48,229 nt of DNA from a bacterium (GTDB lineage: Bacteria > Patescibacteriota > Patescibacteriia > UBA1558 > S5-K13): the NCBI GenBank assembly GCA_029555085.1, contig JAKPTO010000002.1, positions 1 to 48,229 on the forward strand, given 5' to 3'. Below, one piece after another: positions 18,919 through 35,101 of the stretch. The position numbers and the translations under genes were made by a program. Below the pieces are notes generated by a model, which worked only from the letters and a program-made list of their open reading frames with translations, did not search any database and had not been told where the DNA came from. Position 1 is the first letter of the stretch, and every line of letters starts with the position of its first letter.

Positions 18919-21900
18919 TTAGTTCTTTGAAAGTGTAGCACCAGTGACCTTTGTTATGCCTTCAAGTCTGGCATTTGACCAATTTGTGGCGCCACCACCA
19001 TTGTAAGTGAAGTCTGCTGACAAATTAGCAATTTCGGTTTGAATATATTGATAATTATCAGAAACATCTAAGTTGGCTGTTATTACCAATGTTATTTCAC
19101 CGTCTACGAGTTGATTGTCAGCACTAAAACCTCCAGCACTGTCTAAGTCAAATGTAATTACATTTCCCTCGACTGTACTAGTTGCTATGTCTCCAGACTT
19201 ACCCTCTATATATGCCTGGAAATCTGTAGCTGTAACACCTGTAGATGTAGCAAATTTAAGTTTCAATTCTACTAATTTTGCCTTAAGTTCATCATTAGTT
19301 GCTGTTCTGTTAGATCCATTATCAAATACAAATTTGTATTTACCTACGATCTTGCTTGTACCACCTGTTAAACTTCCATCAGACATGGCATTTGATATTC
19401 CTGTTAAAATGGAACCTGTTGTAGAAGCTGTCTTTGTCAATGTAGTATTACTTGAATATTGATTATTTCCTGGCTCCTCACCACCGCCTTCGGCCATAGT
19501 TATAACTTCATAAGAATTTGCTCCTTCAGCTTTTACAGCTTCGCCAGCTGCTAAGCCAAAAGATGATAATGTTGCGGCTGGAGCAAAACCATATTTGATT
19601 GATTTATTAAATTGAGCTGTACTCTCTGGATCCCCAGAAACATTCATACCTCTAGCTTCTACTCCAATATAGTATGAAGTCTTTTGGTCTGCCTCTAATA
19701 CTGCTTTATCATTTAAAAAGTCCGTATCTCTAAAATATACAGAACCATTAGCAATTGGGGCTCTATAAGCAACTAAATTACCATCCTTATCAAATAATTT
19801 AACTACTTTTATATCAGCACCTGTTGCTGTTCCTGAATTTTTTAATACAAGAGCTTTGATTTTAACAGGCTCATTTTGTGTTGTAAATGCTATTTCACCA
19901 AGGTATCTACCATGAGGTGTTGTTGTTCCAGCTAAGATATATGTATCATCATCAGATTTTGAATCACTTGTCTTTAAATGTGCTTTTAATGAACCTTTTG
20001 ATGCTACTGTAACCATTCTTGATTGAACATCAGGGTTAGTAATAGTTGGAGTAACTGTATTATTGTCCTTGTCTTGAACACTTACGGCACCAGCTTCTAC
20101 TTCTAGGTCAAATGCTCCTGTTGTAGGAACAGATGATGTAAATGTAGCTCTTACCTCTAAGTATACATTCTTACCTGCCTTCAATACTCTATTTGTGGTA
20201 TTTAATGATGTGAAGTTAATATAAGCATCGGCACCAGCATTTGTCTCTGTTATAGAGCCAGCTGTTGATTTAAGTAATCTTTCTGTTCCATCTTCTACAA
20301 TATATAGATCAAGTTGAGCTATATTGTCATCTGTAAATGCTGTATCAGCTCCATTTGTATTAATCTTTACAGATTGGAGTTTTAGATCAATTGCGCTACC
20401 AACTTCAAGATATGCTTTGTAGATTAATTCTGGTCCAGCGCCACCTACGACATTTAGTGAAGTTAATGGCATTGTTGTCCAATCTAATCTACCACCTCTT
20501 ACTGTTGTAACAGCACTAGTAACAGATGCTGGGGTTATCTTGGTAATAGGAGCATTTGATGTATCCCCTGTAATGCTAAATGCACCATCTTCTAATGTTA
20601 CTTGATATGTATCTCCGTTATCAGCTGGGTTAGTATCATTTGGGCCCATTATATCAGCTCTAAGTTCAAATGTATGAGTTTTACCCTTAACAAGTGTCAT
20701 CTCCTCATTCATTGTAAGACCACATCTGGCATTATTAATTGTTGAAGTAGCTATTGTCACATCATAAATTGCACCTGTTGTAATGTCTTTCAACTCTACA
20801 TTATCAAGTTCATTACAATTTAAACCAGTTCCAAAAATATCAAATCTATTTGCTCCATTTTCTTTTATATAATTCACTGTTGCGTTTTCTGCATTTGATG
20901 TCATCTTGATTGTCGCAAGAACAACATCGTTAGATCCTGCAACTACATCTTTGGCTGGAGTAGCTGTTTTATCCATAGCAATTGTGAAATCACCTGCGGC
21001 AAGAGTTACTGTAATACCATCACCAGCGGCATCTAAAGCTGCAATATTTGTGATTGAAATACCATATCCATAGTCCTTACCTAAGAATGATACATCGCTT
21101 TTATTTTCTATAAATAAATCTATTGTATTTCCAACACTAGCTGTACCAATGTCACCATAAACCTCTACATTAATATTATCTCCCTTTGCAATAACATAGT
21201 TATTTAAAGCGAAATTAATGTATCTTCCATCAATTGTTCCGATAGCAACATCATCACCATTAATCATCAATCTTACATTTGTAAGTATTGTACTATCATT
21301 TGTTCCACCATTTTTAAATCTAATAGTTTCCCAAATAACAGGTTCGTTCTTTGTGCTCAATGTAAATCCTGCTAATTTAACATTTTGTTCACCAAATTGA
21401 ACACCCCCCACTTTTTCTTTAATTACACCCGCAAGATCAACTTGGCCAATCTCAGCATCGTTTACTGCTACCATTTCTTTTCCAACTACAGGGAAAGATC
21501 CACTAACTACACCACCATCAATAATTACATCTGATGCTGATGCAATACCAAGTGCAAATCTGCCTGACTGACCAGCTTCAATCTCTGCTTTTACTGTTAA
21601 AGATTTTGTTGTTCCTGCTGTAATTTTTATTGGTGTTGAGAAGTTAAATACTGCTTCTCTGGATGAATTCATGTCTTTTGAACTACCTACTTTTATTCCA
21701 TTATCAAAGAAAGTAATACTATCAACATATGTTGGGTTACCCAAAATACCTGTTGGCATTGTTAATTTGATAGATGAAATTAAAACATCTTTTTCAGCTG
21801 CTGTAAAATTAAATACAGAGAATGTGTTTGGTGATCCAGCTGGAACTATCATTGAAACTGGTGAATTTGATGATAAAGCGACTGATAAATTACCACCTGT

Positions 21901-22632
21901 TACCACTGGTGTTGCTCCACCTTCAGTAATTGGATATAAATCTTTTTCAGATTCTGTTATATCTACTCCATTTGTGTATGAAATTGTGTCAGCAACATTT
22001 TCAATTACGAAATCTTCATTGAATTTGTTTGCTATAAATCCAGCTTCTGTTATTAATCTCTTTGTACCATCTCCTACAACATAATAAATGCTGTTTGAGT
22101 TAGCATACTTGATTAAACTTCCTGCTGAATGTGTTGTTGTAATTTTGTTGGCAACTGCATTTGTTGAATTGTAGTTACCTGCATAAAAAGCATCTGGCAT
22201 ATCATCAATCCAAGATGCCCAGTTTGCTCCCCATAGGTTCTTGGCGGTTTCTTCTGAATCAATCCATCTTAAAACGCCACCTTCTTCTATTGCATAGACC
22301 TTTGGATCTGTTGTGATTTTGATTAATCTTGTTCCTGGTCTATAAACAACATTTTTTCCTAGAGGAATATTTCCTAATTCATCAGCTGTTACTGTTACAA
22401 CGCTTGAGAAATCCTTAAACCATGTAAAGTAGGTAGCTGAGTTTGGGAATGTTGCTCTCTTTAATGTACCAGCATCATTATACAAATAATATACAGCTGA
22501 CATGTCTGGTCTTTTAACCAACATACCTTCTGATAAATTTGTAGCGCTTGCTACATTAAAGGAGAATCCTGACAATGTTAATACTGTTGAAAAAATAACA
22601 GTATAAACAAATAATTTTTTAATTAAATTCAT
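18919..22632 (-). CDS. large secreted surface (putative S-layer-like) protein
   Basis: This is a 1237-residue exported protein. Residues 1-30 form a Sec signal peptide (basic start, hydrophobic core, VASA end). Residues ~35-240 hold three related units with the pattern V-K-x-x-x-x-x-x-V-Y-Y-L plus a Trp/Phe-rich part (YFTWFKDFSSVVTV; LRWIDSEETAKNLW; KRLITEAGFIANKF). The rest is Thr/Ser/Gly/Asp-rich beta-sandwich-like material, with recurrent stretches such as FTTQNEPVKIKALVLKNSG. No LPXTG or SLH motif is visible. It has the best ribosome site of the large genes (AAGGAGA eight bases before the ATG), a long structured leader and a strong terminator, suggesting high expression. An S-layer role is inferred from size, composition and context. 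Confidence 0.8.
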   Translation of the reverse strand: MNLIKKLFVYTVIFSTVLTLSGFSFNVASATNLSEGMLVKRPDMSAVYYLYNDAGTLKRATFPNSATYFTWFKDFSSVVTVTADELGNIPLGKNVVYRPGTRLIKITTDPKVYAIEEGGVLRWIDSEETAKNLWGANWASWIDDMPDAFYAGNYNSTNAVANKITTTHSAGSLIKYANSNSIYYVVGDGTKRLITEAGFIANKFNEDFVIENVADTISYTNGVDITESEKDLYPITEGGATPVVTGGNLSVALSSNSPVSMIVPAGSPNTFSVFNFTAAEKDVLISSIKLTMPTGILGNPTYVDSITFFDNGIKVGSSKDMNSSREAVFNFSTPIKITAGTTKSLTVKAEIEAGQSGRFALGIASASDVIIDGGVVSGSFPVVGKEMVAVNDAEIGQVDLAGVIKEKVGGVQFGEQNVKLAGFTLSTKNEPVIWETIRFKNGGTNDSTILTNVRLMINGDDVAIGTIDGRYINFALNNYVIAKGDNINVEVYGDIGTASVGNTIDLFIENKSDVSFLGKDYGYGISITNIAALDAAGDGITVTLAAGDFTIAMDKTATPAKDVVAGSNDVVLATIKMTSNAENATVNYIKENGANRFDIFGTGLNCNELDNVELKDITTGAIYDVTIATSTINNARCGLTMNEEMTLVKGKTHTFELRADIMGPNDTNPADNGDTYQVTLEDGAFSITGDTSNAPITKITPASVTSAVTTVRGGRLDWTTMPLTSLNVVGGAGPELIYKAYLEVGSAIDLKLQSVKINTNGADTAFTDDNIAQLDLYIVEDGTERLLKSTAGSITETNAGADAYINFTSLNTTNRVLKAGKNVYLEVRATFTSSVPTTGAFDLEVEAGAVSVQDKDNNTVTPTITNPDVQSRMVTVASKGSLKAHLKTSDSKSDDDTYILAGTTTPHGRYLGEIAFTTQNEPVKIKALVLKNSGTATGADIKVVKLFDKDGNLVAYRAPIANGSVYFRDTDFLNDKAVLEADQKTSYYIGVEARGMNVSGDPESTAQFNKSIKYGFAPAATLSSFGLAAGEAVKAEGANSYEVITMAEGGGEEPGNNQYSSNTTLTKTASTTGSILTGISNAMSDGSLTGGTSKIVGKYKFVFDNGSNRTATNDELKAKLVELKLKFATSTGVTATDFQAYIEGKSGDIATSTVEGNVITFDLDSAGGFSADNQLVDGEITLVITANLDVSDNYQYIQTEIANLSADFTYNGGGATNWSNARLEGITKVTGATLSKN

Positions 22633-22878
22633 TTTATTTTTCTCCTTAATCCACTACACAGAGGACCTGGCTCTATATCACCGCTTTAATCATTAGACCT
22701 TATAGACTACCAACGCATTGGCATCGATCTTTCTGTCATATAAAGTAAATGTGCCATGAAATAGTTTCCTAGTCATGATATAGTGAACTTTATAAACTAT
22801 TTTAATTAACCATATTTCGTTACAATATGATTAAATAAAATTATATTAATTATTAAATAACAATTATTTTAATATTAA
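22633..22878 (-). promoter_or_regulatory. structured 5' leader of the surface-protein mRNA
   Basis: These 246 bases hold no gene. Near the ATG is the Shine-Dalgarno AAGGAGA (22647-22641). Three local hairpins are visible: AGAG/CTCT at 22660-22674, CTATA/TATAG closing 22673-22705, and CCAA-CGCA-TTGG at 22710-22721. They cover about 60 bases of relatively GC-rich DNA, while the upstream half is extremely AT-rich. A TTGTAA element lies at 22816-22811, but no convincing -10 partner was found, so the promoter remains open. Confidence 0.5.
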
Positions 22879-24024
22879 TTACTGAACTATTAATTCAGTT
22901 TCTGATTTAACCTTTGCTTGATTTATTGCGCTTTCTAATTCTTTTATTTTTGTTTCAAAATTCTGAACATTAAGAGTTGAATCAGCTAAATTTATATATA
23001 AGTCCGCTTTTTGAATTGTTATGTATGCTTCTTCTAGTTTACCTTCGTCAAGTAATTGCTTTGCTTTGTCTATTAAAAGTGTTATTTGTTCTGGATCTGC
23101 TACTTTTTTGATACTTTCTATTGAAAACTCAACTTCCTGCTTGTTTTTATCTGTTGTAGAGTCAACTGATTTACTTTCAGTTGTTTGTTCTGTGGTTGTT
23201 GTTCCTAATTCATTTGTTTTTATAAGCGCTTGCTCGCCTATGGTGATTTTCTCACCAAGTTTTTTAACTGACTCAATTTGTAATTTTATTTGATTATCTA
23301 AGCTTTTATTTACTATTTCTTGACTTGCGTCATCTTTGTCTTTTATTATTATTTCCAAAGCTGCTGTGTTTAATTTCTGTGTTGATTTAATAATATTTTC
23401 CACTGCTTTTGGATTGCTTGCAACAACTTTATCTTTTAGTGAGGCTAGGGTTTCGTCACTATTTTTGTTTATTGACTTTGCGATTTCTAATAATTCCTCT
23501 GTTTTTACATTTTCTTTATTAGTAATTGATTCTAAATTATCACTTGCAATTGCAAGAGTTTTTTCCATATTATTAGTAACTTTTCCGAGTTGATCTTCTC
23601 TTCTGTTATCTATTAAGTAATTGATTTCTTGTAATCTTGTTGTTGCGTGATCTAGAGAAATTTTTACTCTCTGCGCGTCGCTTCCAGCAAGTACTAATTC
23701 TGCTGGCTCTATAACTTGTGTTTTTACTGGATAAAGAATATTTCCAAGTGTTGTCCCTGGCATTGATGCTCTGGCTCCTATAAATGTTCCTGATATTACC
23801 ACTAAAACTGACATTGCAACTGATGCAAATTTCCAACCAGGTAAAAATGTTCTTGTAAATGCGCTAAAATCAAAAAACAAAGATTTGAAATTAAATCCTT
23901 GACGCTTGTGAGAAGTTGTGTCTTTATCTATTTGATTTAACAATATTGACTTTGTGATATGCCAAAACTTCTCATCTGGTTCTATTTCTCTAAATTGTTT
24001 TAATTTGTTTTCTATGTTTTTCAT
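22879..24024 (-). CDS. DUF5667-domain membrane protein, possible anti-sigma-like regulator
   Basis: The 381-residue protein has a cytosolic N terminus with REIEPDEKFWHITKSILLNQ, one transmembrane segment (~65-85, FASVAMSVLVVISGTFIG), then PGTTLGNILYPVKTQVIEPA. That last phrase is the hallmark of DUF5667. Helical repeats follow (VKISLDHATTRLQEINYLID onward), and the tail is rich in Lys/Glu/Thr coiled-coil sequence up to ~381. The layout of an N-terminal cytosolic part, one membrane span and an outer helical domain resembles anti-sigma factors. In related genomes, as I recall, DUF5667 genes often lie close to ECF sigma genes; one is 2 kb away here. An ECF-like promoter precedes it. Function is inferred, not shown. 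Confidence 0.78.
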   Translation of the reverse strand: MKNIENKLKQFREIEPDEKFWHITKSILLNQIDKDTTSHKRQGFNFKSLFFDFSAFTRTFLPGWKFASVAMSVLVVISGTFIGARASMPGTTLGNILYPVKTQVIEPAELVLAGSDAQRVKISLDHATTRLQEINYLIDNRREDQLGKVTNNMEKTLAIASDNLESITNKENVKTEELLEIAKSINKNSDETLASLKDKVVASNPKAVENIIKSTQKLNTAALEIIIKDKDDASQEIVNKSLDNQIKLQIESVKKLGEKITIGEQALIKTNELGTTTTEQTTESKSVDSTTDKNKQEVEFSIESIKKVADPEQITLLIDKAKQLLDEGKLEEAYITIQKADLYINLADSTLNVQNFETKIKELESAINQAKVKSETELIVQ

Positions 24025-24049: not shown

Positions 24050-24074
24050 GACGATTGAAATACAAAAATGTTAC
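24050..24074 (-). promoter_or_regulatory. ECF-type promoter candidate (GTAAC-16-CGTC)
   Basis: On the minus strand TTGTAAC (GTAAC at 24074-24070) is followed by 16 bases and CGTC (24053-24050). This matches the general ECF pattern (AAC-type -35 and CGTC-type -10) better than a housekeeping promoter. Transcription would begin about 20 bases before the DUF5667 ATG. Confidence 0.45.
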
Positions 24075-24120
24075 AAATAAACAATTCAATACATTTATTT
24101 AGTAAATTATTCACAAATAC

Positions 24121-26120: not shown

Positions 26121-26663
26121 TTATTCTCCTATTATTTCCTTTAATTTTTCCATGGCACGATGAATCAAAACTCTAACATTAGCACTGGACTCGTCTAATA
26201 TTTTTGAAATTTCTTTTGTGGAGTATCCTTCAATATGTTTTAATACTACAACTTCTTGCCATTTACCGTTTATTTTGCCTAATTCTCTTATTCCTTTGTC
26301 TAAAATTTGCCAATCTGACATATTGTCAATATTGTGAGCCAAACTGCTGTTTGAAGGCACGGATTCTAAATCCTCTGGTAATTGAAGTTCTTTTATTTTT
26401 TTATAAAAATCAGCAATAGAATTTCTAGCTACCTGATATATAAATGCTTGAAAATTTTTTATTGTATTATGTTTATTTATATATTCCCAACACTTTAAAA
26501 ATACATCACTTGTTATGTCCTCTGCTTTCTCTTTTGTGGGAACCTTAAAATAAACATATCTGTAAATTTGTTTTGAATATATATCATAAATATCAGAAAA
26601 GGCCTCATAATGACCTGCTCTGATTTTTAACAATGCTATGTGTTCACGTTTTTTATCAACCAT
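26121..26663 (-). CDS. ECF-family RNA polymerase sigma factor
   Basis: The 180-residue protein has sigma region 2 at ~18-75 (AFSDIYDIYSKQIYRYVYFK, then EDITSDVFLKCWEYI) and sigma region 4 at ~120-178 (WQEVVVLKHIEGYSTKEISK, then SSANVRVLIHRAMEKLKE). There are no regions 1 or 3, which is the ECF layout. It would direct RNA polymerase to a small set of envelope or stress promoters. It is the last gene of a leftward operon after the HtrA-like gene (12-base gap). No classical anti-sigma factor is adjacent. The DUF5667 membrane protein 2 kb away, preceded by an ECF-like promoter, is a candidate partner. Confidence 0.93.
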   Translation of the reverse strand: MVDKKREHIALLKIRAGHYEAFSDIYDIYSKQIYRYVYFKVPTKEKAEDITSDVFLKCWEYINKHNTIKNFQAFIYQVARNSIADFYKKIKELQLPEDLESVPSNSSLAHNIDNMSDWQILDKGIRELGKINGKWQEVVVLKHIEGYSTKEISKILDESSANVRVLIHRAMEKLKEIIGE

Positions 26664-26675
26664 TATTAAATATTA

Positions 26676-27737
26676 TTATTTAAAAGCCGATAATTTAATC
26701 TTTAACTCTTGTTGCTTATTGTCTCTTAAAATAGTTAATGTAACCTCGTCTCCTGGTTTATAATCCAAAAGAACCGTATTTAAAGATCTAAACTTATTTA
26801 ATTCATCTTCATTTAACTTTTGTATTATATCTCCTTCTTTTATCAAATTATTGGAAGATTTATATACATAAATACCATTATTTGGCATATCAATAGAAAA
26901 TACCATTTTGTTAAGATCGATATATTCTATATTTAAGCTAGGATAATCAATATTTTTATCATTATTGAACAATCTTGTCAAAGAATATCGTATATAATTG
27001 CTTGGTAATAAATAGGTGTTATCATCATACGAATATGTAAATCCAAGCATTTCTGCATTATCATTAACCACAGGAAGACCAGGATCTTCATTGAGAGATA
27101 AAACACCATATATAACAATATCTTCTGAGTTTTGTATTAAATCTTTTTTCTCTTTTATAAATCTTGAATTTATATTTGTGATAGAAGCTGGTATTATTTC
27201 ATTTTGATAATCATATAAATTTGGTTTTATAATATAAACATTTTGCCCAGCTCCAAGAGAAGAAGAATCAATTATTCCTATTGGATTCAAACCATTTTGC
27301 TTAATCTTAATATAAGACAAACCAAGAACATCGTCATTTATAACGGTTTCTATGTCTATTATTTTATTTTCATTATTTACGAGTGCTATATTTTTTGAAT
27401 GATTTATTTTTTTCGATACAAACCAACCATCATTTGTTACAACAACAGCTGTTCCTATAAAATCATCTGTAAAATACATTGATTCGTAAATATTTTTTGA
27501 TAAATCATTCTTTTCTACAATAAGCCAAATTTTATTAGACAAACTGGATGAAATAGAACCAGTTATAGATTGACTATTCCTCTTATCAATCTCAATAAAA
27601 TTAACTTTTTTTGAGGAATTTTCCTCTAAATATTCTGGTATGTTCTTATCAACCAGATATAAAACAAAAGAGCTTGCTATAAAAACAATAATTATTGTTA
27701 AAAGCAAACTAAGGAAAAATTTTGATTTTTCTTTCAT
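26676..27737 (-). CDS. HtrA/DegP-like pseudoprotease with PDZ domain
   Basis: The 353-residue protein has an N-terminal membrane anchor (~8-30) and a trypsin-like HtrA domain (~85-250). A PDZ-like domain ends it (~275-350, EGDIIQKLNEDEL, YKPGDEVTLTILRDN). Alignment by eye to HtrA motifs shows every catalytic position changed. The His segment (usually TNNHV) reads VSKKIN, the Asp segment (DLAVLKI) reads GLSYIKI, and the Ser segment (GNSGGP) reads NEDPGLP. The fold remains clear (GTAVVVTNDGWFV, SSLGAGQNVYIIKPN). It probably acts as a binding or sensing protein outside the membrane, without proteolysis. Co-transcription with the ECF sigma gene suggests envelope-stress signalling. Confidence 0.8.
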   Translation of the reverse strand: MKEKSKFFLSLLLTIIIVFIASSFVLYLVDKNIPEYLEENSSKKVNFIEIDKRNSQSITGSISSSLSNKIWLIVEKNDLSKNIYESMYFTDDFIGTAVVVTNDGWFVSKKINHSKNIALVNNENKIIDIETVINDDVLGLSYIKIKQNGLNPIGIIDSSSLGAGQNVYIIKPNLYDYQNEIIPASITNINSRFIKEKKDLIQNSEDIVIYGVLSLNEDPGLPVVNDNAEMLGFTYSYDDNTYLLPSNYIRYSLTRLFNNDKNIDYPSLNIEYIDLNKMVFSIDMPNNGIYVYKSSNNLIKEGDIIQKLNEDELNKFRSLNTVLLDYKPGDEVTLTILRDNKQQELKIKLSAFK

Positions 27738-27747
27738 ATTATTTTAA

Positions 27748-28503
27748 TTAATATTTTATTATCGATGTTGTAAACGCAACAACTAAAACAGAAATAAATA
27801 TAATAAATAAAGGAAGTCTTCGTTTAAAACAAGATACGCCTTTTAATTCGTCGAGTAAAAATTCTAAAACCATATAATACCAAAGCCAAGTAATAAATGT
27901 TAAAAAATAAATATTAAATGGTAAAAGCGACATAACTAGGTAAATTTCAAAAAAAACAATACTGCTTAATATTAGCAATAATTTATTATTCTTCCAAGTA
28001 ATCTTTTCCCAATATAACCTGATATTTAAACAAATCAATGAAATAAAAAAAATAAATATTGAACTTGTTATTAAATTTGCTCTAATAAATACAAAAACAT
28101 AAAACACAAAAAAAGTATAAAAAAGGAAACATAAAAGATCTATATTTTTTATTATATCACTCGTAATTTCACGATTTTCGTAAATTTTCTTAAATATTGA
28201 ATCAAATAAAACAATGAAGAAATATACTGATAAAACGGAAATCACTACTCTTATAATAAGATTGCTACACACAACAAAAAAGCACCATAAACTCGCTAAA
28301 AACACTAAACAAATTCCAAAATATGACAAAATTTCAGTGTTTTTTATAAATCTATTTTTAATTTTCCAAAAATAAAAAACTAACAGTAATAGGGATAATA
28401 CTAAACCATAATTAAAAAATTTTGGGTAATAATAAGAAATCTCAATAAGTATTGGAAAAATTAATGCGAGGACAAAGCCCAGTATTCTTTTATAAAATAT
28501 CAT
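27748..28503 (-). CDS. polytopic membrane protein of unknown function
   Basis: The 251-residue protein is almost entirely hydrophobic with about seven or eight membrane segments, separated by short basic loops (KIKNRFIKN, FKKIYENREITSD). There is no recognised motif; composition and layout recall the DUF5656-type proteins found in candidate-phyla genomes, but I am not certain. It lies ten bases after the small anchored protein gene and ten before the HtrA-like gene, so all four genes down to the ECF sigma factor are likely one transcript. It may help assemble or sense the envelope complex made by its neighbours. Confidence 0.7.
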   Translation of the reverse strand: MIFYKRILGFVLALIFPILIEISYYYPKFFNYGLVLSLLLLVFYFWKIKNRFIKNTEILSYFGICLVFLASLWCFFVVCSNLIIRVVISVLSVYFFIVLFDSIFKKIYENREITSDIIKNIDLLCFLFYTFFVFYVFVFIRANLITSSIFIFFISLICLNIRLYWEKITWKNNKLLLILSSIVFFEIYLVMSLLPFNIYFLTFITWLWYYMVLEFLLDELKGVSCFKRRLPLFIIFISVLVVAFTTSIIKY

Positions 28504-28513
28504 AATAAATTAA

Positions 28514-28936
28514 TTATTTTAGCGACTCTATAATTTTCTGAAGTGGCTCTTTTATCCAATCATCTGAACGAGATATGGTTTCTAATTTTTTTAGCGCTAA
28601 ATCTTTATCATTATTATAGATTATTTCATCAAAAGCTGTTACGAGATTAAAGTACTGATCTTTGAATTCTAATGGTACAGATAAACCATCTAATTTATTT
28701 CTTGTTTCCTGATAGTCATTATTGAAGCTATTTAAAGCCGTTAAAACTCCTGATTTGTAATTTGCTATTAATTCTTCTTTTGTAATTTGTCTTTCAACTT
28801 GATTTTTTTGTTGACTCACTGGAATAACTTTATCTTGATTTTTTTTATTGCTATAAAGAAAAGCAGATAAAACAATCAAACTCAACACAACACAAACCAT
28901 TAAAATTTTTAAAAGTAAAAAAATATCTTTTTTCAT
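28514..28936 (-). CDS. small membrane-anchored helical protein, unknown
   Basis: The 140-residue protein has one N-terminal membrane span (~9-28, LKILMVCVVLSLIVLSAFLY). A Gln/Lys-rich linker and an extracytoplasmic helical domain (~50-140) follow, with YKSGVLTALNSFNNDYQETR and AFDEIIYNNDKDLALKKLET. No family is recognised. It begins the leftward operon that continues through the polytopic membrane protein, the HtrA-like pseudoprotease and the ECF sigma factor. It lies 18 bases after the preceding small gene and may share that gene's promoter at 29283-29311. A role as an accessory to envelope sensing is only suggested by context. Confidence 0.7.
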   Translation of the reverse strand: MKKDIFLLLKILMVCVVLSLIVLSAFLYSNKKNQDKVIPVSQQKNQVERQITKEELIANYKSGVLTALNSFNNDYQETRNKLDGLSVPLEFKDQYFNLVTAFDEIIYNNDKDLALKKLETISRSDDWIKEPLQKIIESLK

Positions 28937-28954: not shown

Positions 28955-29275
28955 TTATGAAACAAATGAGGGGGATTCAATTAATTCCCAAACACCAGAG
29001 ATTTTTTTGTATACTTTGAAATTATGTGTCTTCTCGTCATCTGAATAAACATAATCAACTGTAACTCCAGATCCTACTCTATTTGAATAATTTACACGTT
29101 TATCAAGAACTAAATCTCTTTCATAAAACTCTACCTTCATTTCTCCAGCTGGGCTTTTAAATTCTATTATTTCTACACTTCCATGACCATCATCATCAGT
29201 ATTTGTATACTGATTTATAACATCAAAACTATCAAGGATTTTAGCCTTGACATCTTTCCATTTTTCTCGGTTCAT
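28955..29275 (-). CDS. small soluble protein of unknown function
   Basis: The 106-residue acidic protein lacks a signal peptide or membrane span. It looks alpha+beta: an N-terminal helix (MNREKWKDVKAKILDSFDVI), then strands with GHGSVEIIEFKSPAGEMKVE and VTVDYVYSDDEKTHNFKVYK. I recognise no named family. A near-consensus promoter places the transcription start within a base or two of the ATG, so the transcript may be leaderless. It lies upstream of the ECF sigma operon and downstream of dnaJ. Confidence 0.72.
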   Translation of the reverse strand: MNREKWKDVKAKILDSFDVINQYTNTDDDGHGSVEIIEFKSPAGEMKVEFYERDLVLDKRVNYSNRVGSGVTVDYVYSDDEKTHNFKVYKKISGVWELIESPSFVS

Positions 29276-29282
29276 AAATATA

Positions 29283-29311
29283 ATTATACAACTTTAAACT
29301 TTAAATTTCAA
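29283..29311 (-). promoter_or_regulatory. sigma-70-type promoter giving a near-leaderless transcript
   Basis: On the minus strand TTGAAA (29311-29306), a 17-base spacer and a perfect TATAAT (29288-29283) are followed by the ATG at 29275. The usual seven-base distance puts the start at about 29276. Confidence 0.6.
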
Positions 29312-29319
29312 ATTAAAAA

Positions 29320-30423
29320 TTATAGTCCTCTTTTTTCAAGTTCTTCAATGAGCTTTTTTTGATCTTTGTTTAAATATTTAGGAACATCTAATATAACTTT
29401 TACATGATGATCTCCGCGACCACGAGAGTTTAATTTTGAAACACCTTTTCCTTTTAAAATAAAAACTTTTCCACTTGAAGTAAGTTCTGGAATTTTTAAT
29501 TTAACTTCTCCGTCAATTGTATCAACTAAAATTTTATCACCTTTTATAAGCTGAGAATATTTTAATTTTATAGTTGAGAAAATATCATCTCCTTTTCTTT
29601 CAAACTTGGAACTTTTTGAAACTCTAATAATTATATACAAATCTCCACTTACTGATCCTTTTGAACCTGATTCACCCTTTCCTGATAATCTAATTGTTTG
29701 TCCATCGCTGATTCCAGCTGGAATTTTTACTTTTATTTCTTCTGTTCCGTTTATTGAACCCGCACCACCACACTTATTACATGTATCTTTAAAAATATTC
29801 CCTGTTCCATCGCAATCAGGACATATTGTCACGCTCGCAAAATTACCAAAAAATGTTTGTTGCTGAACTGTTACACGACCAGAACCATTACATTTTTTAC
29901 ATGTTTGAGAATTGGAGCCACATTTTCCATTACATTTATCACAGACTATTTTTTTATTTAATCTTAGATGTTTTTCTGTTCCAAATACTGACTCTTCAAA
30001 GCTAATGTCAACCTCTGTTTGAATATCTCTGCCCTTATGAGACTGTCTTGAAGAACGTCTTGAACCACCAAAAAAATCACCAAAAATATCTCCAATATCT
30101 CCAAAATCAAATCCAGCTTCAGAGTTATTAAAACCTCCAAATCCTTGTCTCGAAAAATCTTGCCAACTAAATCCACCGCCAAATGGATTAGCGCCTGCAC
30201 CAGAAAAACCTGAACTAAAATCACTACCAAATTGATCGTATTTTTGTCTCTTTTCCTTGTCTTTTAAAACCTGATAGGCCTCATTTATTTCTTTAAATTT
30301 TTCCTCATTACCACCTTTTTTATCAGGATGATATTTATGAGCTAATTTAGAAAAAGCTTTTTTAATATCAGATTGGCTCGCATTTTTATCTACGCCTAAT
30401 ATTTTATAGTAATCTTTTGACAT
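29320..30423 (-). CDS. dnaJ: chaperone protein DnaJ
   Basis: This co-chaperone stimulates DnaK ATPase activity and delivers unfolded proteins. The J domain (1-70) has the HPD motif in HKYHPDKKGG. A Gly/Phe-rich region (~70-120) follows. The zinc-binding domain (~150-215) has four cysteine repeats: CDKCNGKCG, CKKCNGSG, CPDCDGTG and CNKCGGAG; the first departs slightly from CxxCxGxG. The C-terminal substrate-binding domain ends in KDQKKLIEELEKRGL. At 367 residues the length is normal. It is the last gene of the heat-shock supercluster, 19 bases after the DUF3467 gene, and its end abuts the promoter of the next small gene. Confidence 0.97.
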   Translation of the reverse strand: MSKDYYKILGVDKNASQSDIKKAFSKLAHKYHPDKKGGNEEKFKEINEAYQVLKDKEKRQKYDQFGSDFSSGFSGAGANPFGGGFSWQDFSRQGFGGFNNSEAGFDFGDIGDIFGDFFGGSRRSSRQSHKGRDIQTEVDISFEESVFGTEKHLRLNKKIVCDKCNGKCGSNSQTCKKCNGSGRVTVQQQTFFGNFASVTICPDCDGTGNIFKDTCNKCGGAGSINGTEEIKVKIPAGISDGQTIRLSGKGESGSKGSVSGDLYIIIRVSKSSKFERKGDDIFSTIKLKYSQLIKGDKILVDTIDGEVKLKIPELTSSGKVFILKGKGVSKLNSRGRGDHHVKVILDVPKYLNKDQKKLIEELEKRGL

Positions 30424-30442
30424 TTTTGAATTTTAAAACATT

Positions 30443-30733
30443 TTAAGAATCTTTTTTATCTGTAAAACCAATTGTTTTATCTGGACTATCTGATTCTTTT
30501 ATTTCACCAAATGTATTTTCATATTTCTCTATATTATCTTGAAGAGCTTTTATGATTCTTTTCAAATGCCCAGGAGTTGTAATAACTTTTGCGCAAACTC
30601 TTCCTGATGGCGCTGTAATGTTTAAAAAATTCATAATAAACTCTTCTTTATTGTGCATTATTTGCATTGCGTTTGCATATTCTCCGCCAGGAAAATTATC
30701 AGCAATTTTTATTTCTACTTGTTTATTTTCCAT
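30443..30733 (-). CDS. DUF3467-family protein
   Basis: The 96-residue protein matches the DUF3467 pattern: GGEYANAMQIMHNKEEFIMN, then FLNITAPSGRVCAKVITTPG and HLKRIIKALQDNIEKYENTF. It has no signal peptide or membrane span. Function is unknown in the family. Here it lies between dnaK and dnaJ, 19 bases before dnaJ, so it is probably co-expressed with the chaperones. A hairpin at 30746-30778 separates it from dnaK. The position suggests, without proof, a link to protein quality control. Confidence 0.83.
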   Translation of the reverse strand: MENKQVEIKIADNFPGGEYANAMQIMHNKEEFIMNFLNITAPSGRVCAKVITTPGHLKRIIKALQDNIEKYENTFGEIKESDSPDKTIGFTDKKDS

Positions 30734-30745
30734 ATATTTATCACA

Positions 30746-30778
30746 GACCTCGAAGAATCTAAGAATCCTCGAGGTCTT
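30746..30778. terminator. intergenic hairpin downstream of dnaK
   Basis: AGACCTCGA (30746-30754) pairs perfectly with TCGAGGTCT (30770-30778) around 15 bases that can pair further. Towards dnaJ there is no T-run, so it is more likely a partial attenuator or processing site than a full stop. On the plus strand TTTTAT follows. Confidence 0.5.
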
Positions 30779-30788
30779 TTATAATTAT

Positions 30789-32744
30789 TTATTCTTTTTT
30801 AACTTCTTCATATTCGCCCTCAACTGGACCATCTTGTTTAGGCGCTTCTTGATTTGTCTGAGTTTCGTTTGGATTTGGATTCTGAGCTGAATTCTGAGCT
30901 TGTGACTGAGCATACATTGATTTCCCAACTTCCTGCACTACTTCGTTCATTTCTTCTAATTTTTTCTTCATATCATCAATATTATTCACTTCTCTTGCTT
31001 TTTTAAGCTCTTCTAATTTATCTGTTACTTTTTTCTTTAAATCCTCAGGAATTCCATTTGGATATTTAGTTTTATCATCAGCGTCTTTTAATAATCTTTC
31101 TGTGCTGTAAATTACAGTATCAACATTGTTTTGCATTTCAATTTCTTCTTTTTTCTTTTTGTCTTCATCAGCATACTTTTCCGCTTCTTGTTTCATTTTT
31201 TCAATATCATCTTTTGAAAGACCACTTGATGCTGTTATTGTAATTTTTTGCTCTTTATTTGTAGCCTTATCAACTGCTTTTACATTTAAAATTCCATTTG
31301 CATCAATATCAAAAGAAACTTCAATTTGTGGAATACCACGAGGTGCTGGTGGAATTCCGTCTAAAATAAACCTACCCAATGTTTTGTTATCTTGTGCCAT
31401 TGGTCTCTCACCTTGTAAAATATGAATTTCTACAGATGTCTGACTATCTGCTGCGGTTGAAAAAATTTGAGATTTTGAACTTGGAATAGTTGTATTTTTC
31501 TCTATTAAAGGAGTCATAACACCTCCCAATGTTTCAATTCCAAGTGTAAGTGGGGTTATATCAAGTAATAACACTTCTTTTCCGCCAATCGAGCCCTCAA
31601 ATTGTCCCGCTTGAACTGCTGCGCCTAGTGCTACAACTTCATCAGGATTTACTGATACATTTGGTTTTCTACCAAAAAATTCTTCTACTTTTTTCTGAAC
31701 GCAAGGCATTCTTGTCATGCCTCCCACTAAAATTACTTCATCTATATCAGCAATTTGAAAACCCGCATCAGATATTGCTTTTTTGCATGGCTCTATTGTT
31801 GAATCTACTAAATCTTTTATCAAATCTTCTAATTTTGCTCTGGTTATTTTCATAACTAGATGTTTTGGTCCACTCGCATCCGTAGTAATAAATGGTTGGT
31901 TAATTTCAGTTTCTTGCGCTGTAGATAATTCTATTTTTGCTTTTTCTGCGGATTCTTTTAGACGCTGTAATGCAGTTTTATCTCCAGATAAATCAATTCC
32001 CTGATCTTTTTTAAATTCCTCAATAATCCACTGAATAATTCTCTGATCAAAGTCATCTCCACCTAAATGTGTATCACCGTTTGTGGATTTTACTTCAACA
32101 GTTGATTGTTTTGATTCTTTATCATAAGAAATATCCAAAACTGAAATATCGAAAGTTCCACCACCTAAATCATAAACAGCAATTTGTTTATCATCTTCTT
32201 TGTCAAACCCATAAGCAAACGCGGCTGCGGTTGGCTCATTTATAATTCTTTTTACTTTTAATCCTGCTATTTCTCCTGCGTCTTTTGTTGCTTGACGCTG
32301 TGCGTCATTAAAATATGCTGGAACTGTAATTACAGCTTCTTCAACCTTATCTCCTGTTTTTTCCTCGGCATCAGCTTTTAATTTCTGTAAAATCATTGCT
32401 GAAATTTCTTGGGGTGTGTATTCTTTTCCACCCATCTCAACTTTTACTCCCTCTCCTGATTTTACAATTTTATATGGAAGAGTTTTCACATCTTCTTGAA
32501 CTTCTGTATCAGAAAAACTTCTTCCAATTAATCTTTTTATGGAAAACACAGTGTTCTCTGGATTAACTACTGCTTGTCTTTTCGCAAGCTGACCGACTAA
32601 TCTTTCATTTGCTTTTGACATAGCAACAACAGAAGGTGTTGTTCTATTTCCTTCTTTATTCTCAATGATTTCTGGTTTTCCACCTTGAATAACAGCCATT
32701 GCGCTGTTTGTTGTTCCAAGGTCAATTCCTATTATTTTTGACAT
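30789..32744 (-). CDS. dnaK: chaperone protein DnaK (Hsp70)
   Basis: This is the ATP-driven Hsp70 chaperone. The N-terminal ATPase domain starts with [13 protein letters not shown] and includes [28 protein letters not shown] and [11 protein letters not shown]. The substrate-binding domain has [20 protein letters not shown] and the helical lid leads to an acidic tail ([12 protein letters not shown]). Length 651 is normal. It works with DnaJ and GrpE, all encoded nearby. No CIRCE was seen in the 60 bases before it, so expression may depend on read-through from the hrcA promoter or on an undetected one. A short CGCC/GGCG hairpin lies just upstream (about 32761-32773). Confidence 0.98.
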
Positions 32745-32804
32745 ATTATTTTTTATCCCGCCAAAGGCGTGGATTCCTTTCTTAATTTATTTAATATTAT
32801 TTTA

Positions 32805-33125
32805 TTATTGAATTGCTTTTATAATATCTTTTTCATTTTTTATAAAATCATACACACATAAAACATCTGCACTTGTTATGGATTCATTGTTATTTTTTAA
32901 TTTCATAATTTCGTCTGCTTCTAAATCTGTAATTACAGCTTGACCAACCATACCTGTGGGTATAAAAATCGCTTTCATAGCAACTCCGGTTCCACATTTT
33001 TGACACTTGAAATACGACAAAATATACGAATCATTTGCTTCAAGTAATTTTACTTTTGAATAATTATAAGTATCTCCACAAACCGGACATTTTTGTAATA
33101 ATTTTTTTGATAATAAATTGTTCAT
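32805..33125 (-). CDS. zinc-ribbon protein of unknown function
   Basis: The 106-residue protein has two CxxC knuckles, KCPVCGD (~12) and FKCQKCGTG (~39), typical of a four-cysteine zinc ribbon. The rest is alpha-helical with TDLEADEIMKLKNNNESITS and DVLCVYDFIKNEKDI. There is no signal peptide. It lies between hsp20 and dnaK and in the same direction, so it belongs to the heat-shock cluster by position. It could bind nucleic acid or a protein partner; the family is unrecognised. Confidence 0.75.
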   Translation of the reverse strand: MNNLLSKKLLQKCPVCGDTYNYSKVKLLEANDSYILSYFKCQKCGTGVAMKAIFIPTGMVGQAVITDLEADEIMKLKNNNESITSADVLCVYDFIKNEKDIIKAIQ

Positions 33126-33330
33126 TTTTATTTAATTATTATTTTAATTTATATTATTTCTATAAAAATAATACCTTTATTATATTTACCAATTAATCAA
33201 TTTTAATTTTGTGGTCTGGAATTCATGTTTTAGACATAAATTCCAGTCAAATTGAATCTCCCCCGAAATCCTGAATCTTGCCTACAAATAAGCAGGCAAG
33301 TTCAGAGTAACAAAGGGTAAAAATTCCAGT
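33126..33330 (-). repeat. intergenic hairpins between hsp20 and the zinc-ribbon gene
   Basis: Two clear stem-loops fill this 205-base gap. CTGGAATTCATG (33216-33227) pairs with CATAAATTCCAG (33235-33246) with one mismatch and a seven-base loop. CTGAA-T-CTTGCCT (33271-33283) pairs with AGGCAAG-TTCAG (33294-33305) with one bulge. A further ATTCCAG copy lies at about 33325. Neither hairpin is followed by a clean T-run towards dnaK. They may be attenuating or RNA-processing structures or a dispersed repeat. Confidence 0.5.
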
Positions 33331-33747
33331 TTATTTATTTTTTACATCAATTTTAACTGTTTTAGGTTTTACCTCTTCTCTTTTTGGAATCTTTATTTCT
33401 AAAATTCCTTTTTCATATTCTGCTTTTGCTTTGTCGCCATCAACTGAAGTTGGAAGCTGTACTGATCTGTAAAAAGAACCGCGTCTTATTTCTTTTTTGT
33501 AATAATTTTTCTCGTCAATTTCTGATTCCTTTTCCATTGATGATTCAACGGTTAGTACATCATTTTCAATAGAAACATCGATTTTTTCTGGATCAACTCC
33601 TGGAAGCGCGACTCTTGCAATCACATTGTCTTTATCTTGATAAATATCAAGAGATGGGACAAATGTGTTTGGTCTTAGCATTGGCATAAAACCCCAATCA
33701 TCGTCATCTAGTGAGTTAAACACTGGATTCCATTTTATTAGTCTCAT
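33331..33747 (-). CDS. small heat-shock protein (Hsp20/alpha-crystallin)
   Basis: This 138-residue holdase prevents aggregation of unfolded proteins. The alpha-crystallin domain (~35-130) includes VPSLDIYQDKDNVIARVALP, GVDPEKIDVSIENDVLTVES and the closing FYRSVQLPTSVDGDKAKAEY with KGILEIKIPK, followed by KPKTVKIDVKNK. I chose the ATG at 33747 rather than 33774: it begins MRLIKWNP, a standard Hsp20 start, and is preceded by AAGGAG at a good distance. It begins four bases after the grpE stop, so the genes are coupled. It is probably controlled by HrcA through the CIRCE upstream of hrcA. Confidence 0.93.
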   Translation of the reverse strand: MRLIKWNPVFNSLDDDDWGFMPMLRPNTFVPSLDIYQDKDNVIARVALPGVDPEKIDVSIENDVLTVESSMEKESEIDEKNYYKKEIRRGSFYRSVQLPTSVDGDKAKAEYEKGILEIKIPKREEVKPKTVKIDVKNK

Positions 33748-33751
33748 AATT

Positions 33752-34318
33752 TTATTCTCCTTTCTCCGAGTCAAACTCGGTTTTTTGATTCCCTAATCTA
33801 AAATCAGTGGAATCTTTTATTTTATTATTATTTTTATTATTATTTTTACAAACTATAACTTTTGCTGGTTGAATTACTTTGCCATTTAATTCAAATCCGG
33901 GTGTTACTTCTGTAAGTATTTCATTGTCATTGCAATCTGCAAGCTCTTCAAAATCAACTGCCTCGTGTTTATTGTGATCAAACTGCTCTCCTATTGTTTT
34001 TATCTGATTTATTCCAAATTTCTCAAAAAAATCCATCCATAATTTTTTGATATGTTCTAGACCTATAAACCATCCCTGTTGTCTATCTTCTTCTTTTACA
34101 TGAGTTAGCGCTGAATTAAAGTGTGAAAAAAGTGGCAATAATTCCAAAATCATTTCAGCGTTTCCAAATTCAATCACATCTTTTATTCTTTTTTCTGTTT
34201 GTTTTTTATAATTTTCAAAATCAGCTTGTGCGCGTTTCCAGCCATTTAAATATTCTTCATTTTTTAATTTTAATTCTTCTACTTCCTTTGATGTCTTATT
34301 TTTTATTTTTTTCTCCAT
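33752..34318 (-). CDS. grpE: nucleotide exchange factor GrpE
   Basis: GrpE releases ADP from DnaK. The 188-residue protein has the long N-terminal helix with ELKLKNEEYLNGWKRAQADF and ENYKKQTEKR, then the beta domain with QFDHNKHEAVDFEE and VTPGFELNGKVIQPAKVIVC. The short N terminus and an unusual C-terminal tail (about 30 residues, starting KNNNKNNNK) differ from typical GrpE proteins. The tail is encoded by a TTATTATT-rich stretch. It lies between hrcA and hsp20, as in classical heat-shock operons. Confidence 0.95.
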   Translation of the reverse strand: MEKKIKNKTSKEVEELKLKNEEYLNGWKRAQADFENYKKQTEKRIKDVIEFGNAEMILELLPLFSHFNSALTHVKEEDRQQGWFIGLEHIKKLWMDFFEKFGINQIKTIGEQFDHNKHEAVDFEELADCNDNEILTEVTPGFELNGKVIQPAKVIVCKNNNKNNNKIKDSTDFRLGNQKTEFDSEKGE

Positions 34319-34330
34319 ATTTTTATAAAA

Positions 34331-34420
34331 TTAGGGTTTAGGGGCTGTGATATTGAATTTAGGAACCGTGACTAGGAGTTAAAATCCTCTCATCCTAAGT
34401 CCTAACACCTAATCCCCTAT
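34331..34420. repeat. TTAGG-rich inverted repeat between hrcA and grpE
   Basis: The left half contains TTAGGG, TTTAGGGG, TTTAGGAA and CTAGGAG; the right half contains ATCCT, ATCCTAA, GTCCTAA, CACCTAA and TCCCCTA. The two halves are roughly complementary and could form a long imperfect hairpin. The last codons of hrcA lie in the right half. The degenerate hexamer-like repetition looks unlike the rest of the window. Confidence 0.55.
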
Positions 34421-35101
34421 CTTATTCTTAAAATAGTTAATTAATGCTAAATTCTGTTTGTAATCCATTCTTGTTGGTCCTATTATTGTTATAACACCAT
34501 GAGAAAATCTTGATTTTATTGATGATAAATTTTCACTAAAAGAACCCTCTACACCAATTGAAATTTCAGTATTTTTTACATTTTCAAATAAGCTTTCACA
34601 AATTGACTCTAAATTATCAAAAACTAAACTTAAATTTTGTAATTTTTCAAATTCATAAAACTCTGGTTGTGATAACACATCTGAAAATCCAGTAATATAA
34701 TAATTGTAGGGAGAGAAGCAAAGCAAAATTGCATTTTTAGATATGTCAGTATAAAATTTTGCTAAAAATTTTGATTTCTGACTTACATCATTTATTGTTA
34801 AAGTATTGAGAAATGATTCCAATTTTGTTTCAATTTTTTTTGAAAGTTTTTGCTCGTAATTTAAATCATTTACATATAATCTATAAGCTAAGTTTGTAGG
34901 AATTCTTCCAGCAGATATATATGGCTGATACAAATATCCCGCCTCGTCAAGCTCAAGCATAATATTTCTTACAGTTGCCGAACAACAATCTAACTTTTTT
35001 TTATTAACCAAATATTCTGAGGCAATAGGATTTTTTGACTCAATATATTCTTCTATTATTGCATATAATATTTTCTTGTATTTTTTGTCTAATGTTTTCA
35101 T
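34409..35101 (-). CDS. hrcA: heat-inducible transcription repressor HrcA (short form)
   Basis: HrcA binds CIRCE and shuts off heat-shock genes. The N-terminal winged helix (1-95) has DKKYKKILYAIIEEYIESKN, then PIASEYLVNKK, CCSATVRNIMLELDEAGYL and QPYISAGRIPTNLAYRLYV, a clear HrcA signature. The remaining dimerisation region is short: the whole protein has 230 residues against about 340 in most bacteria. The C terminus has FSHGVITIIGPTRMDYKQNL and ends in YFKNKIGD. A CIRCE operator overlaps its own promoter region, indicating autorepression. It opens the heat-shock supercluster. Confidence 0.93.
   Translation of the reverse strand: MKTLDKKYKKILYAIIEEYIESKNPIASEYLVNKKKLDCCSATVRNIMLELDEAGYLYQPYISAGRIPTNLAYRLYVNDLNYEQKLSKKIETKLESFLNTLTINDVSQKSKFLAKFYTDISKNAILLCFSPYNYYITGFSDVLSQPEFYEFEKLQNLSLVFDNLESICESLFENVKNTEISIGVEGSFSENLSSIKSRFSHGVITIIGPTRMDYKQNLALINYFKNKIGD

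Follow-up and report, generated by a model that had tools for sequence, protein, structure and literature searches.

What does an HtrA-like protein do once it has lost the residues with which an HtrA protease cuts, and does its position next to a sigma factor gene tell us what it is for? The question is raised by a 353-amino-acid reading frame (positions 26676-27737, minus strand), here called pHtrA, in a stretch of 48,229 nucleotides (the window) from a 1.02-Mb Patescibacteria genome. A first, sequence-only reading had taken the protein to be a pseudoprotease with all three catalytic residues replaced, its fold and PDZ domain kept, which signals by binding in the pathway of the neighboring ECF sigma factor. 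We examined the protein, its gene neighborhood, and its relatives across the phylum.

By predicted fold, pHtrA is a member of the HtrA/DegP family, with a trypsin-like double barrel followed by a PDZ domain. The Pfam profile Trypsin_2, which matches 28 of 35 relatives, finds no match in the window protein, and kinship was therefore tested by fold and by family profile. The AlphaFold model, predicted as a single chain with a mean pLDDT of 87.8, retrieved Deg1, DegQ, MucD, DegP, and DegS in Foldseek searches, at E values of about 1e-16 to 1e-17. The NCBIfam HtrA profile matches at E 9e-16, yet far under its 470-bit cut-off, and phmmer against the PDB finds DegQ (E 4e-6). The PDZ domain (26688-26936, minus strand) is defined by a PDZ_2 match (E 1.2e-10), by alignment, and by the model, and it is present in all 35 relatives tested; in the window's family its first helix segment (SPAxxAG) is absent, as both the alignment and the start of the match at profile position 27 indicate. 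At the other end of the protein, a hydrophobic stretch of about residues 8-30 (27648-27716, minus strand; helix 2-31 in the model) is the predicted N-terminal membrane anchor. The retained fold and PDZ domain thus reappear in the predicted structure, with DegS itself among the matches.

The His-Asp-Ser triad and the GNSGG motif that define an active HtrA/DegP protease are both missing from this sequence. When pHtrA is aligned with intact HtrA proteins from the same class, the catalytic His corresponds to Ile111 (codon 27405-27407, minus strand; GWFVSKKI vs. GxxLTNKH) and the catalytic Asp to Gly139 (27321-27323, minus strand; VLGLSYIKI vs. xNDIAIVKI), both as originally proposed. The third substitution had been misplaced by one residue: the Ser position is occupied by Pro219 (27081-27083, minus strand; EDPGLP vs. 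GNSGGP), and the Asp that had been assigned to it replaces the preceding Asn. No replacement triad was found near the old one; the sole nearby histidine, H113, is missing in a 70% identical relative (L033). The loss is shared by the orthologs. All 103 HtrA-like genes of the same class that are paired with the membrane protein gene described below lack the catalytic His, and none retains two or more triad residues. Indeed, there is no conserved His among the invariant or near-invariant columns of the family, and four relatives contain no His at all. Other residues are strictly kept: D103, G104, and D135 are invariant and W105 and K144 nearly so, all of them outside the old triad, and the DG motif is also found in active paralogs. 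Estimates of dN/dS (NG86) are 0.19 between the window gene and its counterpart in a related genome (G001; dS about 1.0) and 0.11 for a second pair of genomes (G025/G029; dS 0.8), and the gene is therefore under purifying selection. On these comparisons, loss of the triad is not chance decay, and there is good support, throughout the class, for the proposal that pHtrA is a pseudoprotease that acts by binding.

The constant companion of the dead HtrA is the gene immediately upstream (27748-28503, minus strand), which encodes a polytopic membrane protein with nine predicted helices. We call it DUF5656-like: PF18900 (DUF5656) matches 4 of 30 homologs, with a best E of 4e-8, and leaves the window copy unmatched. 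Its AlphaFold model, again with nine helices, has a pLDDT of 94.1 and resembles no solved structure in the PDB (best E 2.2). A profile of this protein finds matches in 119 of 140 related genomes. In 103 of 114 same-class loci fetched, with related genomes counted as separate, the DUF5656-like gene is followed on the same strand by an HtrA-like gene, which is the very next ORF in 99 of these pairs and lies within 30 bp in 76. Four of the 11 unpaired loci are at contig ends. The genomes are drafts, and all neighbor counts come from loci fetched for holding a DUF5656-like protein or an HtrA. By gene order, then, the dead HtrA is maintained across the class with the DUF5656-like gene as its constant upstream partner. 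No fused DUF5656-HtrA gene was found. In one locus (L167) the DUF5656-like sequence lies in a 625-aa frame on the minus strand, with about 370 extra residues ahead of it. In one member of the window's family (G002, 99% complete), searches for pHtrA, its DUF5656-like partner, and the sigma and DUF5667 proteins discussed below all came back without a match.

The association extends beyond the class, and there it includes HtrA proteins with an intact triad. The DUF5656-like protein occurs in 93 of 287 sampled genomes of the phylum, and outside the class an HtrA-like gene adjoins it in 28 of the 38 loci with a called ORF. Of these 28 linked genes, 15 retain H-D-S, 14 together with a complete GNSGG motif, and 13 are degraded. 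Linked HtrA genes with an intact triad therefore exist in other classes and are absent from the 103 same-class pairs. Since intact and dead HtrA proteins lie beside the same membrane protein, the pairing is independent of protease activity. In a tree built by a quick method, unrooted and with a midpoint root for drawing only, all dead copies sampled from the class cluster together, with a modest support of 79, and a second cluster (support 99) comprises the class's intact unlinked copies, around which the intact DUF5656-linked copies are placed. Although the unrooted tree leaves the direction of change unproven, the sequences are most naturally explained by an intact ancestral gene that lost its triad. 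Intermediate arrangements were also seen. In a locus of another class (L213, 3780-9736) the DUF5656-like gene is flanked by one dead and one intact HtrA. Two linked HtrA proteins are half-degraded, one (L200, 2605-3822) having kept H-D-S and lost GNSGG, the other (L201, 4113-5375) having kept Ser and lost His and Asp.

We think it probable, with moderate confidence, that pHtrA contributes binding rather than catalysis, as a subunit of a complex that it forms with the DUF5656-like membrane protein for envelope assembly or quality control. It would be anchored in the membrane, with HtrA-like and PDZ domains that presumably lie outside the cytoplasm and are unable to cut, and would serve the nine-helix protein as a scaffold or client-holding subunit; the constant pairing of the two genes suggests such a complex. 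The complex would act in the assembly or quality control of envelope and surface proteins and glycans, a role to which the neighboring genes point: these include Wzz, glycosyltransferases, and Wzy in distant relatives, as well as an AI-2E transporter and a large surface protein, and they differ between lineages. Because other classes often pair the same membrane protein with an intact HtrA, the two proteins probably first made up a complex with protease activity, of which the window's class would have kept the binding without the cutting.

The closest precedent, by analogy, is MamO of Magnetospirillum, an HtrA pseudoprotease that carries a TauE-like membrane domain at its C-terminus; its activation of MamE, one of its non-catalytic functions, needs this polytopic domain (PMC4794232). 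Like MamO, pHtrA combines an HtrA fold and a degenerate triad with a tie to a polytopic membrane part, and a non-catalytic function is proposed for it. Unlike in MamO, however, the membrane part is encoded by a separate, DUF5656-like gene, and the surface di-histidine metal site is absent from the pHtrA family. Whereas MamO is found in magnetosome islands, pHtrA is spread across a class of Patescibacteria, and the window's genome contains no canonical active HtrA that could be its partner.

The adjacent sigma factor appears to have a partner of its own. Its gene (26121-26663, minus strand) matches Pfam Sigma70_r2 and r4_2 at E values of about 1e-10; its best profile is NCBIfam TIGR02952, under the cut-off, and its best PDB match is 6dxo_A (E 1.3e-31), which we take to be the complex of RsbN and σBldN from Streptomyces. 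On these matches it is a BldN-like ECF sigma factor, with regions 2 and 4 and with BldN as its closest known relative. The promoter consensus of BldN is of the GTAAC...CGT type, and a motif of this type recurs here. In relatives (L035-L152), 26 of 32 loci have GTAAY-N16-CGTC ending 7-8 nt ahead of the start codon of the sigma gene, with a dyad count of 23 vs. 6 in shuffles, a candidate promoter through which the sigma factor would regulate itself; the short distance to the start codon suggests leaderless transcripts. In the window's family the motif sits before the DUF5667 gene rather than before the sigma gene (TGTAAC-N16-CGTC, 24050-24075, minus strand). That gene (22879-24024, minus strand; PF18915, E 1.3e-10) encodes a single-pass membrane protein, and in 64 of 77 genomes a sigma and a DUF5667 gene share a strand and are no more than 4 kb apart. 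The DUF5667 protein is thus a probable anti-sigma factor, whose expression would be driven by the sigma factor itself. The single-pass membrane partner is a further likeness to the BldN system, for which the title of a study of the RsbN-σBldN complex appears in the reference list of PMC7406223. Two profiles of the N-terminal region of the DUF5667 protein, where an anti-sigma factor of the RsbN type has its sigma-binding helices, detected no similarity to any chain in the PDB, and none to RsbN. A regulon search with the promoter pattern in eight genomes gave counts not above those of the reversed control, and we therefore claim no wider regulon. In one relative (L057, 1468-1767, plus strand) and 23 similar loci, the stretch between pHtrA and the sigma gene encodes, on the opposite strand, a conserved HTH_17 protein of about 99 aa.

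These data bear on whether pHtrA works in the sigma pathway. DegS and MucD, HtrA proteases of sigma-E type stress responses, share with pHtrA an HtrA domain, a PDZ domain, and, in the window's lineage, a nearby ECF sigma gene, and DegS also shares the N-terminal anchor. By its sequence, however, pHtrA is without the catalytic residues with which a protease of the DegS type cleaves its anti-sigma factor, its sigma link is not general, and the sigma factor's own partner here is DUF5667. A sensor could instead act by binding, its PDZ or dead domain holding DUF5667 and either shielding it from or presenting it to a protease, such as an M50 site-2 protease. The window's genome encodes two M50 peptidases, and only 12 bp separate the end of pHtrA from the start of the sigma ORF downstream; because the sigma gene lies directly behind pHtrA, it is probably co-transcribed with the pair in this family. 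Where such a sigma gene is present on the fetched stretch, it is on the same strand as pHtrA in 33 of 33 cases and downstream in 31, and the family member that lacks the pair also lacks the sigma factor and DUF5667. However, 70 of the 103 pairs have no such sigma gene on the fetched stretch, the sigma-DUF5667 pair is apart from the HtrA pair in 40 of 77 genomes, and GTAAY-N16-CGTC was found in none of 30 regions upstream of the DUF5656-like or pHtrA genes. With separate partners, and with the motif absent before the HtrA pair, the sequences therefore describe two modules, DUF5656-like with pHtrA and sigma with DUF5667, joined in the window's lineage. The sigma link proposed earlier thus stands as close linkage and looks weak as a pathway role. 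Direct control of the anti-sigma factor by pHtrA is possible, and a role as sensor of the sigma pathway strikes us as unlikely. We put forward only tentatively the broader idea of a phylum-wide two-gene device, in which HtrA was turned into a non-catalytic receptor and, in the window's lineage, became coupled to a BldN-like sigma factor. If that is true, a dead protease would report the state of the envelope to transcription.

Other accounts of pHtrA leave the sigma factor aside. HtrA proteins act as trimers, and a dead copy might turn on an active HtrA partner through mixed trimers or through contact. In favor of this idea, MamE-dependent proteolysis requires MamO (PMC4794232), one locus has a dead and an intact HtrA on either side of the DUF5656-like gene, and most genomes of the class contain a strong Trypsin_2 match. 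The first reading had proposed a search for an active paralog; the window's genome offers a single Trypsin_2 protein of 740 aa, with intact TNYHV and GNSGG motifs, but it is not a canonical HtrA and no PDZ domain was detected in it. Moreover, Trypsin_2 matches at E 1e-30 or better occur in 13 of 36 same-order genomes, most of the others keeping pHtrA, and with no conserved His the family has no counterpart to the metal-binding His pair of MamO. Given the absence of a canonical HtrA from the window's genome and strong matches in only 13 of the 36 same-order genomes, we regard activation of a partner as distinctly improbable here. Loss of the triad may also leave room for some other chemistry, and D103, G104, D135, W105, and K144 could be more than structural. 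Since the DG motif is shared with active paralogs, it looks structural, and a new enzyme on the HtrA scaffold would surprise us considerably. That pHtrA is a decaying pseudogene we find scarcely credible: the triad is gone and the PDZ domain is shortened in the window's family, but the reading frame is intact, and the low dN/dS, the fixed gene pair across the class, and the strict DG motif and PDZ residues already contradict decay. A binding subunit of a proposed DUF5656-like complex is the reading that we retain.

To our knowledge, HtrA pseudoproteases have turned up in few bacterial settings; the one that we found described belongs to magnetosome islands (PMC4794232). In pHtrA we have a pseudoprotease retained throughout a class of Patescibacteria as one half of a fixed gene pair, whose other half encodes an uncharacterized membrane protein; other classes have the pair with an intact HtrA. 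Intact, partly degraded, and dead HtrA proteins beside one partner form a natural series in which to ask what an HtrA does when it does not cut. In the literature searched we found no paper on DUF5656 or DUF5667, and the pairing gives a starting point for asking what DUF5656-like proteins do, and how envelope stress is regulated in bacteria of which almost none has been cultured.

The rest of the locus, all on the minus strand, adds several minor observations. The run of genes that contains pHtrA opens with a conserved 106-aa protein (28955-29275), without a Pfam match and with same-strand homologs upstream in 42 loci, followed by a small single-anchor protein (28514-28936), similar small genes being present there in relatives. 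A candidate housekeeping promoter before the run (TTGAAA-17-TATAAT, 29283-29311) is weak, such matches being about as frequent in shuffled sequence. PADLOC found nothing in its search. Downstream of DUF5667 lies the gene for a large secreted surface protein (18919-22632), with syntenic homologs in 28 loci. The region before it (22633-22852) is conserved, also in L033-L067, around the core GACCAGAAAGGTCGAT and forms local hairpins; RNAalifold gave no consensus fold, Rfam had no match there, and the region is possibly a structured leader. Directly upstream of the pHtrA run, positions 29320-35101 encode proteins that are HrcA-, GrpE-, DnaK-, and DnaJ-like by sequence, together with a small Hsp, and one relative (L034) likewise has DnaK, DnaJ, GrpE, and small Hsp homologs.
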